DNA from: Deltaproteobacteria bacterium
GTDB taxonomy: Bacteria > Myxococcota > Myxococcia > Myxococcales > 40CM-4-68-19
Direction of reading: 5' to 3'
Assembly: GCA_005879315.1 (NCBI GenBank)
Contig: VBLC01000055.1
Span: forward strand, 1-64,000
Length of the DNA: 64,000 nt
Positions 441 to 7,408 of the stretch are shown one piece after another; position 1 is the first letter of the stretch, and the number at the start of each line of letters is the position of its first letter. Made by a program: the position numbers and the translations under genes. The notes under the pieces are model-generated. The model did not search any database, was not told the origin of the DNA, and worked only from the letters and a program-made list of their open reading frames with translations.

Positions 441-2234
441 ATGAGACCCTTGCTCGCTCTCGCGCTCTGCGGGTGCGCCTCCGCGCCGCCGGCCACCGCA
501 GAAAACAATCCTCGCAAGCCCACCGCCGACGACGCCAAGGCCTTCGTCGCCAGAGTCAACGAGGATCTGAAGCGGCTCTTCGTCAAATCTTCCACGGCGG
601 ACTGGATCAAGAACACCTACATCACCGACGACACCGAACGGAACGCGGCGAGCGCAAACGAGGAGCTGCTCGGCTATCAAGCGCGCGCCACCAAGACGGC
701 CGCGGCGTTCAAGGAGCTGCCGCTCGACCCCGACACAGCGCGCATGCTTTATCTCTTGCGCATCTCCGCAACCGCGCCGGCGCCGGAGGATGCGAAGAAG
801 CGGCTCGAGCTGACCACGCTCGCCGCCAAGCTCGAGGGCCACTACGGCTCGGCCAAGGACAAGAAGGGCCGCGACCTGCAAGAGCTGAGCGCGCTGCTCC
901 GCAAGAGCCGCAACCATGACGAGCTGCTCGATGCCTGGGTCGGCTGGCACGAGACCGCCCGCGAGCAGCGGCCGCGGTACCAGCGCTTCGTGGAGCTGGC
1001 CAACGAGGGCGCGCGCGAGATCGGCTTCGCCAACATGGGCGACGTCTGGCGATCTTCCTACGACATCCCGCCCGACGAATTCGAAAAGGAGACGGACCGG
1101 CTCTGGGCGCAAGTGAAGCCGCTGTACGACGGCCTGCATTGCTATGTGCGCGCGCAATTGCAGCAGCAGTATGGGAAGGAAAGGATTCCCGAGGGAAAGC
1201 CCATTCCGGCGCACGTGCTCGGCAACATGTGGGCGCAAGAATGGGGAAGCATCTATCCCTTGGTCGAGCCCTACAAAGGGGTCGCGAGCCTCGACGTGAC
1301 CAAGGCCATCGTCGCGCAGAAGTGGGACCCCGTCCGGATGGTGAAGGCCGGCGAGGCATTCTTCACTTCGATGGGCCTCGACCCGCTGCCCAGGACCTTC
1401 TGGGAACGGTCGATGTTGGTGAAGCCGCGCGACCGCGAGGTCGTCTGCCACGCCAGCGCCTGGGACGTGCAGTTCGACGACGACCTGCGCATCAAGATGT
1501 GCATCAGGCCCGAGGAGGAGGATCTCGTCACCATCCACCACGAGCTGGGCCACGATTACTATTTCCACGCCTATTACAAGCTGCCCGCGCTCTATCAGGG
1601 AGGCGCCAACGATGGCTTTCACGAGGCCATCGGCGATGCGCTGACCTTGGCGATGACGCCGGCCTATCTCAAGCGGCTAGGCCTCCTCGAAGAGATGCCC
1701 GACAATCCGAAAGCGGTCATCAACGTGCAGATGAAGGATGCGCTCAACAAAGTCGCCTTCCTTCCTTTCGGCAAATTGATCGATCAATGGCGGTGGGACG
1801 TCTTCAACGGAAAGACCGCGCCCGGCGATTACAACAAAGCCTGGTGGGCATTGAGAACGAAGTTCCAGGGTATCGCCGCCCCGGTCGCGCGCAGCGAGCA
1901 GGATTTCGACCCGGGCGCGAAGTATCACGTGCCCGCCAACGTTCCCTATACGCGATATTTCCTCGCCCGCATCCTGCAATTCCAGTTCTATCGCGCCATG
2001 TGCCAGGCGGCGGGACACAAAGGCCCGCTGCATCAATGCTCCTTCTATGGGAGCAAAGAGGCGGGTGCGCGCCTGTGGAAGATGCTCTCGATGGGCGCCT
2101 CGCGGCCCTGGCCTGACGCGCTCGAAGCGATGACCGGGCAGCGGCAGATGGACGGCGGCGCGCTCCTCGAATACTTCGCGCCGCTGCAGGCCTGGCTTCT
2201 GGAGCAGAACAAAGGGTTGTCCTGTGGCTGGTGA
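441..2234 (+). CDS. M2 family (ACE-like) zinc dipeptidyl carboxypeptidase, probable lipoprotein
   Basis: A 597-aa zinc metallopeptidase expected to release dipeptides from the C-termini of peptides in the periplasm. The gluzincin motif HELGH is at residues 367-371 and the third zinc ligand is Glu395 in E-A-I-G-D. The 24-residue spacing between the last His and this Glu matches the angiotensin-converting-enzyme family. Length is close to bacterial ACE homologues (about 600 aa). The N-terminus is short and hydrophobic with an L-C-G-C stretch that could serve as a lipobox, so it is probably lipid-anchored. The stop overlaps the start of the POT transporter by 11 bp. That pairing suggests released dipeptides are imported by the transporter. 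Confidence 0.92.
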   Translation: MRPLLALALCGCASAPPATAENNPRKPTADDAKAFVARVNEDLKRLFVKSSTADWIKNTYITDDTERNAASANEELLGYQARATKTAAAFKELPLDPDTARMLYLLRISATAPAPEDAKKRLELTTLAAKLEGHYGSAKDKKGRDLQELSALLRKSRNHDELLDAWVGWHETAREQRPRYQRFVELANEGAREIGFANMGDVWRSSYDIPPDEFEKETDRLWAQVKPLYDGLHCYVRAQLQQQYGKERIPEGKPIPAHVLGNMWAQEWGSIYPLVEPYKGVASLDVTKAIVAQKWDPVRMVKAGEAFFTSMGLDPLPRTFWERSMLVKPRDREVVCHASAWDVQFDDDLRIKMCIRPEEEDLVTIHHELGHDYYFHAYYKLPALYQGGANDGFHEAIGDALTLAMTPAYLKRLGLLEEMPDNPKAVINVQMKDALNKVAFLPFGKLIDQWRWDVFNGKTAPGDYNKAWWALRTKFQGIAAPVARSEQDFDPGAKYHVPANVPYTRYFLARILQFQFYRAMCQAAGHKGPLHQCSFYGSKEAGARLWKMLSMGASRPWPDALEAMTGQRQMDGGALLEYFAPLQAWLLEQNKGLSCGW

Positions 2235-3615
2235 AAAGCGGCTGCCGCCCTCCGTCAAGTACATCATCGGCAACGAGGCCTGCGAGCGGTTCAGCTTCTA
2301 CGGCATGAGCACCATTCTCGTGCCGTACATGCAGCAGTTCCTCGGCTGGCCGCACAATACCGCGGAGAGCATCTATCATTACTTCGTCGCCGCGGCCTAT
2401 GCGATGACGGTCGTCGGCGGCTGGCTCTCCGATCGCTTCTTCGGCCGCTATCGCACCATCCTCTGGCTTTCCTATGGATATGTGCTCGGACATGCCGTGC
2501 TGGCTGCCGGCGATCTCGGATTTCGGGTTCCGGCGCTCGTCGTCGGAATGATCCTGATCGTCATTGGACAATCGGGGATCAAACCGAATCTATCGGCTTT
2601 CGTCGGCGATCAATTCCGGCAGGACGAGCGGCACCTGCTCGACCGCGTCTATTCCTGGTTCTATTTCGCCATCAACGTCGGCTCGGCCACCTCGCAGCTG
2701 ATCACGCCCTGGCTGCTCGCCGGCTGCGCCTTCGGCGCGATCAAGCTCTGCGACAGAACCGCCACCGCCTGGGGATTTGGCGTGCCCGGCCTCCTGATGG
2801 CGGCGGCCCTGGTCATCTATCTGGCCGGACGCAGCCAGTACGTCAAAGTGCCGCCCGCAGGCCGCGACCCGAACGGCTTTCTCGCCGTGCTCCGCACCCG
2901 CCTCGCCGACGGCGAAGACGTCGCCCGCAAGCGTCACGGAGACGTCGCGGTGGAAGGGATGCGCTCGGTCTTCCGCATCGCGCTCGTCTTCCTGCCCATC
3001 GTCGCTTTCTGGGCGCTCTACTTTCAATACGGCTCCTCCTGGTTCAACCAGGCCGAGAAGATGGACCGCGACATCTTCGGCTGGCAGATGGAATCGGCGC
3101 AGATGGAATCGCTCAACGCCATCCTCATTCTCATCATGGTTCCGAGCTTCGCCTACCTGGTCTATCCCGCGCTCGAGCGGGCCGGGCTGCGCATGACGAT
3201 GCTGCGGCGGATGGGCATCGGCATGTTCGTCGCCGTACCGGCCTTCGTCTCGGCGGCGATGATCCAGCGCTGGATCGAGGCTGGAGGACAACCGCACATC
3301 GCCTGGCAAGTGATCCAGTACGTTCTCATCTCCATCGCCGAGACGATGGTCAGCGTCACCGCGCTCGAGTTCGCCTACACGCAGGCGCCCAGGTCGATGA
3401 AGGGCGCGATCATGAGCCTCTGGTTCTTGACGCTCGGGACCGGATCGCTGGTCACCTCGCTCGTCCGCAGCTACGTCTCCTTCTCCTCGGGGAGCGGCTA
3501 CTTCCTCTTCTGGGCGGTCTTCATGCTCCTCGGAGCGGTCGCCTTCGCCGTCGTGGCGGCGCTCTACAAGCCGGTCGCTTTCGTCGCCGCCGGCGAAGGC
3601 GCTCAGGCGGCCTGA
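2224..3615 (+). CDS. POT/PTR family proton-coupled oligopeptide transporter
   Basis: A 463-aa member of the proton-dependent oligopeptide transporter family (MFS fold), an inner-membrane importer of di- and tripeptides. The diagnostic proton-coupling ExxER motif is at residues 18-22, followed by F-S-F-Y-G in the first helix. About twelve or more hydrophobic helices follow. The start is GTG at 2224, inside the end of the M2 peptidase gene (11-bp overlap), which indicates translational coupling. The 3' end overlaps the convergent prolidase by 13 bp. Context fits a peptide-scavenging module: extracellular peptidase, importer, cytoplasmic prolidase. Confidence 0.93.
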   Translation: MAGEKRLPPSVKYIIGNEACERFSFYGMSTILVPYMQQFLGWPHNTAESIYHYFVAAAYAMTVVGGWLSDRFFGRYRTILWLSYGYVLGHAVLAAGDLGFRVPALVVGMILIVIGQSGIKPNLSAFVGDQFRQDERHLLDRVYSWFYFAINVGSATSQLITPWLLAGCAFGAIKLCDRTATAWGFGVPGLLMAAALVIYLAGRSQYVKVPPAGRDPNGFLAVLRTRLADGEDVARKRHGDVAVEGMRSVFRIALVFLPIVAFWALYFQYGSSWFNQAEKMDRDIFGWQMESAQMESLNAILILIMVPSFAYLVYPALERAGLRMTMLRRMGIGMFVAVPAFVSAAMIQRWIEAGGQPHIAWQVIQYVLISIAETMVSVTALEFAYTQAPRSMKGAIMSLWFLTLGTGSLVTSLVRSYVSFSSGSGYFLFWAVFMLLGAVAFAVVAALYKPVAFVAAGEGAQAA

Positions 3616-4907
3616 CCCCCGCCCTTCTCGAGGACTTCCCGCGTCAGGTTGCGCACCCCGCGCGCGAGGACCTGCACGTCGTCCTCGATGCGCACTCCGC
3701 CGAACGCCGCCAGCGCATCGACGAGCTTCCAGTCGATGTCGGACGACTTGCGCCAGGGCGCGAGCAGCGCTTCGATGAAATAGATCCCCGGCTCGATGGT
3801 GAAGACCTGGCCCTCGGCGATGACGCTGGTGTTGCGCAGGAATGGATTGTCCGCACGCGGCGGACGCAGGGCGCAGCCGACGTCGTGGCACTGCAAGCCC
3901 AAGGAGTGGCCGAGGCCGTGCGGATAGAAGGCGCGGGTGATGCCGCGCTTGACCAGCTCGTCGACCGACAGCCTGGAGATGCCGACGATGCGGAGGATCT
4001 GCGCGACTTGCCGGTGCGACTCGTCGTGCAGCTCCTCGTACGGCATTCCGACGCGCACTGCGGCGCAAAGGCGCTGCTGCATCGCCTCCACTCCCGCGAC
4101 GACCTGCGCGAAGACCGACGCGGCTGCGCCGCCTCCTTTCACCCAGGTGCGGGTGATGTCGGAGCAGTAGCCGGAGAAAGAGGCTCCGGCATCGAGCAAG
4201 AGCGACTGCGCCGGCGTCGCGCGCTTTTCGTAGCTGATGTGGTGAAGCGTCGCGGCGTGCTTGCCCAGCGCGACGATGTTCTTGTAAGGGGTTTCGGCGT
4301 CGTCCTGCAGGGTCGTGCCAAGAAACGCCAGGTGGAGCTCGAGCTCGGCCCGATCGCCGGATGCGAAAAGCGTGCGCAGCTGCTCGTGCCCGGGACCGGC
4401 GCGCCGGTTGGCTTCCGCCAGACAGAAGACTTCGTATTCGGTCTTGTGCACCCGCAGCTGATCGAGCTCGGCGAGAAGAGAGGCCGGATTGCGCCCCTCC
4501 TCGGGAACGCCGAGGGCCACAGCCGCGGCCAGGTCGTCGCCGATGAAGGCTGCGCGAGCGGGAACGAGCTCGCGCGCAGCGTTGCTCTCGATCACCTCGA
4601 AGGCGCCCCAGAAATGGGCGCTCTCGGGCGGCGCCGGCGCTTCCCAGAAACTGGGCTGCAGCGTCCGAACCAGTTTGGGCTGCTTGCCGGGCTGCACCAC
4701 GAGCAGACCGCCAGGCTCGGCGAGGGGCAGCCAGTGCTGGAAATGCGGAGTGGGCCGCAGCGGCCAGTAGGCGTCGTCAGCCTCGGTGCGCTTGACCGGC
4801 GAACCCGAGTGGATGGCGAGCGCGCCGAAGCCGGTCTTCTCCAGCGCGGCCGCCACACCGCGCTGCAGACTCTCGACATGGGCGCGATGCAGTGAGGCGA
4901 GATCCAT
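3603..4907 (-). CDS. pepQ: Xaa-Pro dipeptidase (prolidase), M24B family
   Basis: About 434 aa from ATG 4907. An upstream in-frame start at 4937 would add ten residues of unconvincing sequence. It is a cytoplasmic metallopeptidase that splits Xaa-Pro dipeptides. The pita-bread metal ligands are all visible in order: Asp in L-D-A-G-A-S, Asp in S-D-I-T-R-T-W, His in H-G-L-G-H-S-L-G, Glu in T-I-E-P-G-I-Y-F, and Glu in V-R-I-E-D-D. Length and the internal E-R-A-T-P-like region fit bacterial PepQ (E. coli 443 aa) rather than the shorter Xaa-Pro aminopeptidases. It converges on the POT transporter gene and completes a peptide-use set. Confidence 0.93.
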   Translation of the reverse strand: MDLASLHRAHVESLQRGVAAALEKTGFGALAIHSGSPVKRTEADDAYWPLRPTPHFQHWLPLAEPGGLLVVQPGKQPKLVRTLQPSFWEAPAPPESAHFWGAFEVIESNAARELVPARAAFIGDDLAAAVALGVPEEGRNPASLLAELDQLRVHKTEYEVFCLAEANRRAGPGHEQLRTLFASGDRAELELHLAFLGTTLQDDAETPYKNIVALGKHAATLHHISYEKRATPAQSLLLDAGASFSGYCSDITRTWVKGGGAAASVFAQVVAGVEAMQQRLCAAVRVGMPYEELHDESHRQVAQILRIVGISRLSVDELVKRGITRAFYPHGLGHSLGLQCHDVGCALRPPRADNPFLRNTSVIAEGQVFTIEPGIYFIEALLAPWRKSSDIDWKLVDALAAFGGVRIEDDVQVLARGVRNLTREVLEKGGGQAA

Positions 4908-5171
4908 GGCGCTCACTCTAACGCGATCTTCCCCCAACGACTCGACCGGCCTACGCCCAAGGTCTCAGATGGCGGCGAAGACTCGTGCGCTTTCTGTTCG
5001 ATCGATCATTTTCAATCCAGTTCACAGCCTGCGGCAGAGCGAAGTCCGAAGTGTTGTCCACAAATCGCGCCCATGGCTTCACAGCCCTTCCACAGCACGA
5101 CTGCCCAGATTCGAATCGCCGTACAGATCTGCACCTGTTCTGTTTCTGCGCTGTTAGGTCGCGTCAAGAAC
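4908..5171. other. Non-coding stretch upstream of the RNA promoter
   Basis: There is no convincing ORF here. Two short perfect palindromes lie upstream of the sigma-54-like promoter: GATTCGAATC (5108-5117) and CAGATCTG (5124-5131). They are about 55 and 41 nt upstream of its -24 element, where an enhancer-binding protein could sit, but each is short enough to arise by chance. A single DnaA-box-like TTGTCCACA is at 5054-5062. Base composition is visibly less GC-rich than the neighbouring genes. Confidence 0.5.
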
Positions 5172-5187
5172 TGGCACGCGTGATGCT
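5172..5187 (+). promoter_or_regulatory. Sigma-54 (RpoN) type -24/-12 promoter
   Basis: The sequence TGGCACGCGTGATGCT matches the RpoN consensus TGGCACG-N4-TTGCW at all but one position (A for T before TGC). The invariant GG (5173-5174) and GC (5185-5186) are separated by exactly 10 nt. Taking the C of GC as -12 puts the start of transcription near 5198. Downstream lies the structured-RNA region and no gene on this strand until 6272. Motif strength is good, but no experiment supports it. Confidence 0.6.
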
Positions 5188-5197
5188 CTAGTCCCGT

Positions 5198-6169
5198 CCG
5201 TGCTCGGCGGTCCGGTGGGTCGCCTGGCGCGCAGGCCTCGAACCTGTTTTTCGAAAGGAGGATGGGAGTTCAGGCCAGAAACCTCGTGCGGGTCGGAAAC
5301 CTGGTTCCAGGACATTCCGACCCTCGCACTGGCGAAACGCCGAGGACCAGCTGCGGTGGGCTCATCGCAGTGAAGGTCGAGGGCGGAGGGGGCGTGAAGG
5401 CGCTTCCACGGTGCGGGGGGAGAAAACCCGGAGGAGGAGAAGCCCAAGAGGGGCGCGGATCGATCGGGGCTTTAACCGGTCCCATCGACACCGCACTCAC
5501 CGCGGGGAGCAAGGCCCTGAAGTCGAGGGCGCATTCGCTGGTCAAAGGCGGATGCGTCCAACGGCCAGAGGGCATGAAACGGCCGGGGAAACCCGGTACG
5601 GCTCCGCGGAGAGGGAGAAACCCCTGAAGGGCAAACCCTGGACGTGGCTGCGGGGTGAAATAAACCCGCAAGGTTGGTGGCGGAGCAAACCGTCGAGGGC
5701 GTGCGAAACGCCGAGGACGGAACTAAGTCCGGGCTGGGATTTCCCGGGCGTGTGTGGACGCTGCCAGCTGATGCCGCGATGAGGGACGAAACCCCAAGGG
5801 AGGCGCTCTCTGGTCGTCCGGAAGGTCGCGAGGTCTTCCGGGATACGGGGAGCAGGTCGCAGGTCGTCGAACTCTGAAGGAGGCGAAAAGCTCTCGGGAG
5901 GATGAAATCGTCGGCGCGAGTCGGCGATGGACGGCGTACGAAGAGAAACCGCAGGGTCCGGTTGAAAGGCCGAGATCGAGGCGGGAGCGGGATAAGCCAA
6001 CTGTCCCGTGATTCGGACGCATAGGAATACTCCGAGGAGCATCGAACCTCCATGAGAGGCAGCGCAGGCCGGGGCAACCCGGCAGGTGCAACGACAGGCG
6101 GTCCTTGAACCTCCGAAGGGGAAAGCGCGCCGGGTGGTCCTTCGGGCCACCGGGCACGTTTTCTTTTTT
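5198..6169 (+). ncRNA. Large (~970 nt) structured non-coding RNA, family not recognised
   Basis: No plausible gene occupies this stretch, yet it folds locally almost end to end on the + strand. Examples: a 12-bp stem 5286-5297/5316-5329 enclosing CCTG-GTTC-CAGG; 5351-5355/5366-5370; 9 bp 5530-5538/5548-5556; 5583-5587/5592-5596 capped by GAAA; 5650-5654/5665-5669; 5698-5702/5708-5712; 5715-5718/5727-5730; 8 bp 5817-5824/5835-5842; 9 bp 5907-5915/5920-5928 capped by GCGA; 5959-5963/5968-5972 capped by GAAA; 5988-5992/6004-6008; and 6 bp 6068-6073/6078-6083 capped by GCAA. It has a sigma-54-like promoter just upstream and an intrinsic terminator at 6129-6169. Size and 'ornate' loops recall OLE, GOLLD and ROOL RNAs, but I recognise no defining motif of these, nor a group II domain V, RNase P, tmRNA or rRNA. 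The minus-strand ORFs across it are low-complexity Pro/Arg/Ser translations and look spurious. Confidence 0.7.
6129..6169 (+). terminator. Intrinsic terminator ending the structured RNA
   Basis: The stem is 6129-6140 with 6144-6155 around a TTC loop. It has eleven pairs including one G-T, and one G-G mismatch at 6132/6152. It is followed within 4 nt by an 11-nt T tract (6159-6169) interrupted by one C. T-runs like this are very rare in this GC-rich DNA. It separates the RNA from the Liv operon, which starts 103 nt later. Confidence 0.8.
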
Positions 6170-6271: not shown

Positions 6272-7408
6272 ATGCGGATCATTCTCGCAGCGCTCCTCTT
6301 CTCGTTGGCAGCGCAGGCGAAAGAAACCGTTCGTATCGCCTTCATCGGTCCGCTCACCGGCGGCAACTCCGCCGTCGGCCTGGGCGGCCGCAACTCCGCC
6401 GACCTGGCCGTCAAGCTGCACAACGCCGGCCCCGGCTCGAAGTACCAGTACGAGCTGGTCGTCCTCGACGACGAGTGCAAGCCCGACGCTGGCGTGCAGA
6501 TGGCGACCAAGGCCGGCTCCGACCGCAGCATCGTCGCGGGGGTGACCCACTACTGCTCGGTGGTGGCGATGGCCACCGTGGACACCTTTCACCGCTTCGG
6601 CCTTCCCACCATCGTCTGGGGCGCGGTCCTGCCCGACATCACCTATGGCCACGACTTCAAGGAGATCCACCGGGTCAACGGGACGATGATCAACCAGAAC
6701 GAGACCAACGCGAAGTTCATGGCCGCGCAGGGCTACAAGAAGTTCGCCGTCATCCACGACACGACCGACTACGGCAAAGGCCACGACAAGTACTTCACCA
6801 AGTTCATCACCGAGTCGGGCGGGCAGATCGTCGGCGACTTCGGCGTCACCGCCGACCAGCAGGACTTCACCGCCGAGCTGACCCAGATCAAGGCGCTCAG
6901 TCCCCAGGCGCTGTACTTCGGCGGTCTGACGCCCATCGGGGTGCGCATCCGCTCGCAGATGGACAAGCTGGGCCTGAACGCGCAGTTCGACGGCACCTCG
7001 GGGATCGTCAACGACGATTTCATCAAGGCGCTCGGTCCGCTCGCCGAAAGCGTCCTCGCCTTCCGCGAGGGCGCGCCGGCCGAGAAGCTGCCGGGCGGGA
7101 GGAAATTCCTCGAGGAGTACGGCAAGCAGGGCTACTCCAACCCGCCCGAGGCGTACGGCCCCTTCGCGTTCGTCGCTGCCGACCTGCTCATGCAGACCAT
7201 CGAAAAGACGGGCCCCGATCGCCGCAAGATCATCGCCGGACTCGCCCAGGTGAAGGACTTCGATTCCATCGTCGGCAAGATCACCTTCGACGATCACGGC
7301 CAGAACACCGTCCCCGTCATCACCAAGTACGTCGCGCAGGACGGCAAGTGGGTCTTGTGGGAGGAGAGCGAATACGCCAGAGGCTCGCGCAAGCTGCGCG
7401 GCAAGTAG
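6272..7408 (+). CDS. Branched-chain-amino-acid-type (LivK/HAAT) periplasmic substrate-binding protein
   Basis: A 378-aa receptor of a high-affinity amino-acid (HAAT) ABC importer. It has a signal peptide of about 16 residues ending A-A-Q-A before K-E-T-V-R-I-A-F. The type I periplasmic-binding fold begins with F-I-G-P-L-T-G-G and continues through L-D-D-E-C-K-P-D, as in Leu/Ile/Val-binding proteins. A well-placed GGAGGG precedes the ATG but lies in a hairpin. The permease starts 2 nt after its stop. The ligand cannot be read from sequence. The downstream peptidase, amidase and acyl-CoA ligase suggest an amide or amino-acid conjugate rather than plain leucine. Confidence 0.9.
   Translation: MRIILAALLFSLAAQAKETVRIAFIGPLTGGNSAVGLGGRNSADLAVKLHNAGPGSKYQYELVVLDDECKPDAGVQMATKAGSDRSIVAGVTHYCSVVAMATVDTFHRFGLPTIVWGAVLPDITYGHDFKEIHRVNGTMINQNETNAKFMAAQGYKKFAVIHDTTDYGKGHDKYFTKFITESGGQIVGDFGVTADQQDFTAELTQIKALSPQALYFGGLTPIGVRIRSQMDKLGLNAQFDGTSGIVNDDFIKALGPLAESVLAFREGAPAEKLPGGRKFLEEYGKQGYSNPPEAYGPFAFVAADLLMQTIEKTGPDRRKIIAGLAQVKDFDSIVGKITFDDHGQNTVPVITKYVAQDGKWVLWEESEYARGSRKLRGK

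Follow-up and report, generated by a model that had tools for sequence, protein, structure and literature searches.

A gap of ~1.3 kb in the window (the whole 64,000-nt stretch of DNA that was analysed) raises the question of what lies between its upstream neighbour, an M24 Xaa-Pro dipeptidase gene (3603 to ~4905–4937, minus strand), and its downstream neighbour, a gene for a branched-chain amino-acid binding protein (6272–7408, plus strand). An earlier reading of the letters alone (the sequence-only reading) had found no genes here and had proposed a large, possibly undescribed and regulated non-coding RNA. The stretch between the two genes is indeed gene-free, and the absence of a conserved open reading frame (ORF), massive covariation and a negative Rfam search support a large structured non-coding RNA that is probably regulated and apparently undescribed. 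We are very nearly certain that it represents a real new family of structured RNAs.

Coding capacity and neighbouring genes

On the plus strand, purines prevail in the interval 5198–6169 (G 38%, A 21%, C 27%, T 14%). Eight ORFs were tracked in the alignment, and each of them meets stops or frame shifts in homologues. Indels between close family relatives were not multiples of three in 99 of 102 cases, leaving 3 triplet indels. The possibility of a conserved protein, which the sequence-only reading had raised against its own proposal, is thereby answered, and the interval is without coding capacity.

The binding-protein gene belongs to the downstream side of the locus, where a branched-chain amino-acid transporter operon runs on the plus strand; the 3′ end of the RNA lies ~100 nt ahead of the ATG of this operon, on the same strand. 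The genes downstream of the RNA differ in most homologues and occur on either strand, and no neighbouring gene common to the RNA loci was found outside close relatives. At the G005 locus the upstream gene is the same as in the window and the downstream gene is different. In G003, a member of the genus, the dipeptidase gene is kept and the RNA site is taken up by other sequence with open frames, without the RNA. The RNA can therefore be missing and is dispensable for the lineage. Together with the lack of a conserved neighbour, this argues against a cis-acting leader and against an obligate partner in cis. The RNA is independent of its neighbouring genes.

Upstream of the RNA, genes for an M2 (ACE-like) peptidase, a POT peptide transporter and the Xaa-Pro dipeptidase stand in a row (441–4937), by appearance a peptide-scavenging cluster, with the branched-chain amino-acid ABC transporter across the RNA from it.

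Architecture of the RNA

The minimum free energy (MFE) fold of the plus strand at 5199–6169 has −520 kcal/mol, and the centroid lies within 0.1 kcal/mol of it. Measured against 20 dinucleotide shuffles, the fold z was −12.1 for the plus strand vs −2.7 for the minus strand, in agreement with the strong plus-strand structure that had been claimed. The features are as follows.

5172–5187, plus strand: sigma-54 (−24/−12) promoter motif, TGGCACGCGTGATGCT; from the sequence and homologues
5198–6169 (~972 nt), plus strand: the whole non-coding RNA; from homologues, fold z and RNAalifold z
5199–5232, plus strand: terminal helix P1, 5′ strand; inverted repeat with 6125–6158, in MFE and centroid
5234–5276, plus strand: hairpin P2 with GAAA loop at 5253–5256; outer helix paired in 96% of cells
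5282–5437, plus strand: domain I; closing helices paired in 98–100% of cells
5282–5285/5434–5437, 3x3 loop 5286–5288/5431–5433 and 5289–5293/5426–5430: closing module of domain I
5342–5344/5379–5381: second 3x3 loop of domain I
5442–5632, plus strand: domain II; closing helices paired in 97–100% of cells
5442–5445/5629–5632, 3x3 loop 5446–5448/5626–5628 and 5449–5453/5621–5625: closing module of domain II
5519–5521/5566–5568: inner 3x3 loop of domain II, which also has a GAAA loop at 5588
5567–5725, plus strand: core used for covariance models R1–R3, from the end of domain II through most of domain III
5636–5785, plus strand: domain III; closing helices paired in 98–100% of cells, with covariation
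5636–5639/5782–5785 and 5643–5648/5773–5778: closing helices of domain III
5655–5664, plus strand: hairpin loop of domain III, GUGAAAUAAA
5695–5697/5713–5715: 3x3 loop of domain III, GAG/GAG
5792–6121, plus strand: domain IV; closing helices paired in 94–100% of cells
5792–5795/6118–6121, 3x3 loop 5796–5798/6115–6117 and 5799–5803/6110–6114: closing module of domain IV
5872–5882/6048–6058 and 5890–5900/6030–6040: nested modules of domain IV
5828, 5916, 5964 and 6074: GNRA loops of domain IV
6125–6158, plus strand: terminal helix P1, 3′ strand; overlaps the terminator hairpin proposed earlier
6159–6169, plus strand: U-tract, TTTTCTTTTTT; possible termination point

The 5′ end of the RNA is placed at the predicted sigma-54 start and its 3′ end in the U-tract. 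P1, a helix of 34 nt (5199–5232/6125–6158), joins the two ends and encloses one hairpin and four domains with the same kind of closing module, in which a short purine-rich loop, of the 3x3 type in domains I, II and IV, separates a helix of 4 bp from one of 5–6 bp. Domain III is the most conserved part of the RNA. Equivalents of P1 with quite different sequence were found in the members Baikal (28/29 nt), nzgw251 (27/27) and LakeF (15/16), as well as in L058 and L059; RNAs delimited by P1 span ~940–980 nt. Ungapped detection of P1 gave no helix in many loci of the second phylum described below, and P1 was seen in the listed members only.

The purine-rich 3x3 internal-loop module occurs in ~8 copies in the RNA, and the multi-domain architecture is built on its repetition. 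Among 54 sequences the 3x3 loop of the core reads GAG/GAG in 24, AAG/GAA in 13 and GAA/AAG in 4, the rest including close variants. At the ends of the loop G mostly stands opposite G and A opposite A, a non-canonical form of covariation. Motifs of the module are concentrated on the RNA strand: CTGAAG has a density of 2.3/kb there, compared with 0.11 on the antisense strand and ~0.25 in the flanks, and CANGAGRG one of 2.6/kb, compared with 0 on the antisense strand.

All four GNRA tetraloops listed by the sequence-only reading are present (GAAA at 5588, GCGA at 5916, GAAA at 5964 and GCAA at 6074), and there are two more (GAAA at 5253 and GCGA at 5828). At 5964 each of the 8 sigma-54-type sequences that cover the loop has GAAA. 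At 5916 all 8 sigma-54-type sequences have a GNRA loop or UCAC (GCGA, GAAA, GGAA or UCAC), at 6074 7 of 8 have GCAA or GUGA, and the loop at 5588 is less constant among these sequences. The core hairpin is capped by a GNRA loop in ~39 of the 54 sequences and by a pentaloop (e.g., GACGA) in most others. The loops thus vary in sequence and are conserved as a GNRA class. The module CCCUGAAG/GAGGG may resemble the IC3 GNRA receptor, a likeness that we take as no more than a lead. IC3 receptors bind GNRA loops (PMC3494683).

Covariation across homologues

The sequence-only reading had named a lack of covariation among homologues as a finding that would speak against an RNA. In 15 sequences of the core, 92.7% of cells were paired vs 36–47% when the partners were slid, two-sided changes affected 23 of the 41 core pairs, and 79 two-sided cells were counted vs 24 ± 3.4 in shuffled and 8–16 in slid controls. 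With 54 sequences, 87% of cells were paired and covariation was abundant: 438 cells were changed on both sides and still pairing, vs 134 ± 9 after shuffling and 44–83 after sliding. One pair, for example, is GC in 27 sequences, CG in 22, AU in 2, UA in 2 and UG in 1, without a single failure.

Alignments fitted by a covariance model bias such counts towards the structure of the model, to which the slid controls and a family-only test are a partial answer. For this test a structure was derived from six family members and applied to three distant sequences in an alignment made from sequence only. It paired 76% of cells, compared with 36–43% when slid, and kept 140 double changes, compared with 50–60. 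RNAalifold on nine sequences gave z = −22.8 vs 12 column-shuffled alignments. Compensatory changes beyond those due to relatedness, which define a structured RNA family, are therefore present, and both the strand and a conserved secondary structure closed by the 5′–3′ helix P1 are established.

Promoter and 3′ end

The sigma-54-like promoter of the sequence-only reading was recovered as TGGCACGCGTGATGCT exactly at 5172–5187, and it predicts a transcription start near 5198. The element is present in 9 of 9 close homologues of the sigma-54 type, and across the 54 loci it was found upstream of the RNA in 18, vs 0.47 expected. At the level of the motif, the marks of a sigma-54-dependent gene (a conserved TGGCAC with GG-N10-GC upstream) are thus in place, and a large subset of the family shares this putative promoter. 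Several other members carry TTGACA-like elements in its place.

The intrinsic terminator proposed at 6129–6169 stood only in part. The window and G001 have its U-tract and G005 lacks it. A scan with a consensus terminator gave one weak match, no better than chance; the proposed terminator consists mainly of the 3′ strand of P1, and intrinsic termination at this place is not conserved. The local terminator hairpin and P1 would be alternative folds, and the former perhaps helps termination in the species of the window. In nzgw251 and Baikal a separate hairpin and a U-rich stretch follow further downstream.

Distribution of the family

The source genome has one copy of the RNA. Full-length or near full-length homologues were found in 6 of 12 genomes of the family to which it belongs, and the five relatives are 76–83% identical to the window across most or all of the length of the RNA. 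Within the genus no copy was found in 3 of 7 genomes, G003 among them. Covariance model R1, made from the 159-nt core (5567–5725, plus strand), reached beyond the family to others of the same phylum, and distant members were matched at E-values down to 1e-32. A degenerate pattern was also scanned across 84,980 genomes and its matches were checked by covariance model; the confirmed members are labelled Myxococcales, Myxococcota, Deltaproteobacteria or uncultured proteobacterium. Seven of the 18 pattern-scan loci (L031, L033, L034, L036, L038, L041 and L044) had no covariance-model match and were set aside as chance, as were the 30-bp matches L007–L010, which are not homologues.

The broader model R2 found the RNA in 10 of 195 genomes of the phylum of the window and in 58 of 284 genomes of a second phylum, that of the genome carrying L048, where one genome can have as many as six loci. 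As a negative control, the broadest model, R3, found nothing in two outgroup phyla: 0 of 297 genomes in one, to which a Desulfobacteraceae genome belongs, and 0 of 299 in the other, to which an alphaproteobacterium belongs, 0 of 596 altogether. These genome counts are lower bounds, as the first look in the searches was lossy. Borderline matches were seen in G031 and G023 (E 0.003–0.005). In an RpoB tree the RNA-bearing genomes form a group from which Desulfobacteraceae and Alphaproteobacteria are separate; basal support is moderate (81/79). We therefore call the range Myxococcota sensu lato; the many carriers are bacteria of soil and water that resemble myxobacteria.

No match was found among 50,697 phages or 72,556 plasmids, nor an exact-pattern match among the viral contigs of IMG/VR. 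The window is free of tRNAs, and a single tRNA was found among 36 loci.

In five genomes (G206, G256, G276, G398 and G408) three to six separate RNA loci lie on different contigs. The RNA members at L060 (1–3155) and L061 adjoin uvrA, and their purine-rich stretch seems to extend for ~1.7 kb, nearly twice the length of the RNA in the window, between a TTGACG/TATAGT-like promoter and a hairpin with a U-tract.

Comparison with known large RNAs

Few bacterial RNAs near 1 kb have a conserved and elaborate structure, and their functions are mostly open. The suggestion that the present RNA might belong to an existing Rfam family did not hold: of 4227 families none reached the gathering score, whether with the window or with 24 distant loci, and nothing credible turned up for the window at E ≤ 5. 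No published description was found in the open-access papers searched. Judged against Rfam 15 and the open-access papers, the RNA is new as a family; it also belongs to the informal kind of the "large ornate RNA".

OLE, ROOL and GOLLD share size and ornateness with it (PMC12286853), although their Rfam models had no match at gathering score in the window or the 24 distant loci. OLE, which works as a ribonucleoprotein (RNP) and forms an RNA dimer (PMC12286853, PMC9723947), is likewise a large, highly conserved and elaborate chromosomal non-coding RNA whose biochemistry is unknown. It differs in being ~600 nt long and found mainly in Bacillota, whereas the present RNA has ~970–1,700 nt and occurs in Myxococcota sensu lato, where, as judged from the neighbours at the loci, no conserved protein gene adjoins it across clades. 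GOLLD, an ornate giant of more than 800 nt, is similar in that it covaries extensively. ROOL, likewise large and ornate, is similar in the great complexity of its secondary structure, in having no known protein partner and in being a candidate for RNA-only assembly. Phages and prophages carry the genes for both, those for GOLLD often close to tRNAs and those for ROOL close to tRNA islands (PMC12286853), but the present RNA is without phage, plasmid or tRNA association, and no such location was found at the loci examined, apart from the one tRNA among 36 loci. Group I and II introns and RNase P presumably resemble it in packing several domains by GNRA loops and receptors; they differ in that the present RNA is closed at its ends and preceded by a promoter motif of its own, and Rfam gave no match to the catalytic core of a group I or II intron or to an RNase P family. 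The RNA may work like OLE, ROOL and GOLLD by analogy, though it is not a member of them.

Proposed mode of action

Our preferred reading, to which we assign a probability of about 0.6, is that the RNA is induced by sigma-54, folds by docking of its GNRA loops and acts as an RNP scaffold or as an RNA-only assembly. Sigma-54 with an enhancer-binding protein would induce the RNA in a particular condition; the sigma-54 promoter class in many members suggests this route. The RNA would then fold autonomously, with P1 joining the ends, and its GNRA loops would dock into minor grooves or 3x3 modules and so pack the four domains anchored by P1. The finished particle would act in trans, either as a scaffold for an RNP or as a homo-oligomer of RNA only, in the manner of OLE, ROOL or GOLLD. 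That the role is architectural (scaffold or assembly), rather than one of catalysis or of regulation by base-pairing, we put at even odds. The fullest version, in which a new giant Myxococcota RNA family unrelated to OLE, ROOL and GOLLD is switched by sigma-54 and forms a particle from 3x3 modules that receive GNRA loops, is tentative and on balance doubtful.

In a ribozyme, size, conserved loops (e.g., UGAAAYAA) and a packed architecture would serve catalysis. Loop nucleotides are conserved beyond the helices, as in the h7 loop (NTGAAAYAAN), and a ribozyme is often suspected where a bacterial RNA is large and highly conserved, as stated for OLE (PMC11332333). However, architecture accounts just as well for the GNRA loops and the module repeats, the sequence indicates no substrate, and there is no match to a known ribozyme or intron family; we regard a ribozyme as unlikely. 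We find it distinctly unlikely that the RNA is a sponge or regulator, whose GGA/GAGG motifs would titrate a CsrA-like RNA-binding protein or whose exposed segments would pair with mRNAs. The RNA is rich in GAGG/AGGAG strings, sigma-54 control would suit a regulatory RNA, and the myxobacterial sRNA Pxr regulates development (PMC10217877). Yet the purine strings lie in the conserved 3x3 internal loops between helices and not in hairpin loops, and their register is variable on both strands (GAG/GAG, AAG/GAA, GAA/AAG), which points to a structural constraint.

The patchy distribution and the up to six copies per genome would suit a phage or mobile-element RNA like ROOL or GOLLD that had entered chromosomes, but the phage, plasmid and IMG/VR searches, the near-absence of tRNAs and the ordinary chromosomal neighbours make this improbable. 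A role as cis-regulator or long 5′ leader for the transporter operon is highly improbable; the position just upstream and on the same strand would fit, but the downstream genes vary among homologues, the upstream gene and not the downstream one is common to the window and the G005 locus, and the RNA comes with a promoter motif of its own and with closed ends. High GC eases strong folds, and there are long open frames on both strands, yet chance hairpins in GC-rich DNA or an overlooked coding gene have a negligible probability in view of the fold z of −12, the covariation, the 99:3 indels and the stops in homologues. The readings as operon leader, phage RNA, intron and coding gene were thus rejected on account of variable neighbours, the lack of a phage or Rfam match and broken ORFs.

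The covarying 3x3 module and the GNRA loops conserved as a class open the folding and assembly of giant RNAs to direct tests, in a family that is found in many genomes of two phyla, with an estimated length of up to 1.7 kb and up to six copies per genome.

Further observations

The core model also gave weak matches (12–13 bits) elsewhere within the same RNA, at 5378–5488 and 5897–6045 in the window and at 2120–2247 in L004. Other parts of the RNA thus score weakly (~12 bits) against the core, which hints at a likeness among the domains and at their origin by internal duplication.

The metagenome-assembled genome G199 is probably chimeric, because it carries two different rpoB genes (contigs C556 and C790), one of which groups with Acidimicrobiia in the tree on a long branch. 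A selenocysteine tRNA (L050, 2682–2780) lies on the contig of the nzgw251 RNA, ~5 kb away from it, probably by coincidence. The high-GC member L081 (601–2200) has very many CTTCGG strings, i.e., UUCG-type hairpin caps, in its 5′ part, and its GNRA loops seem fewer.
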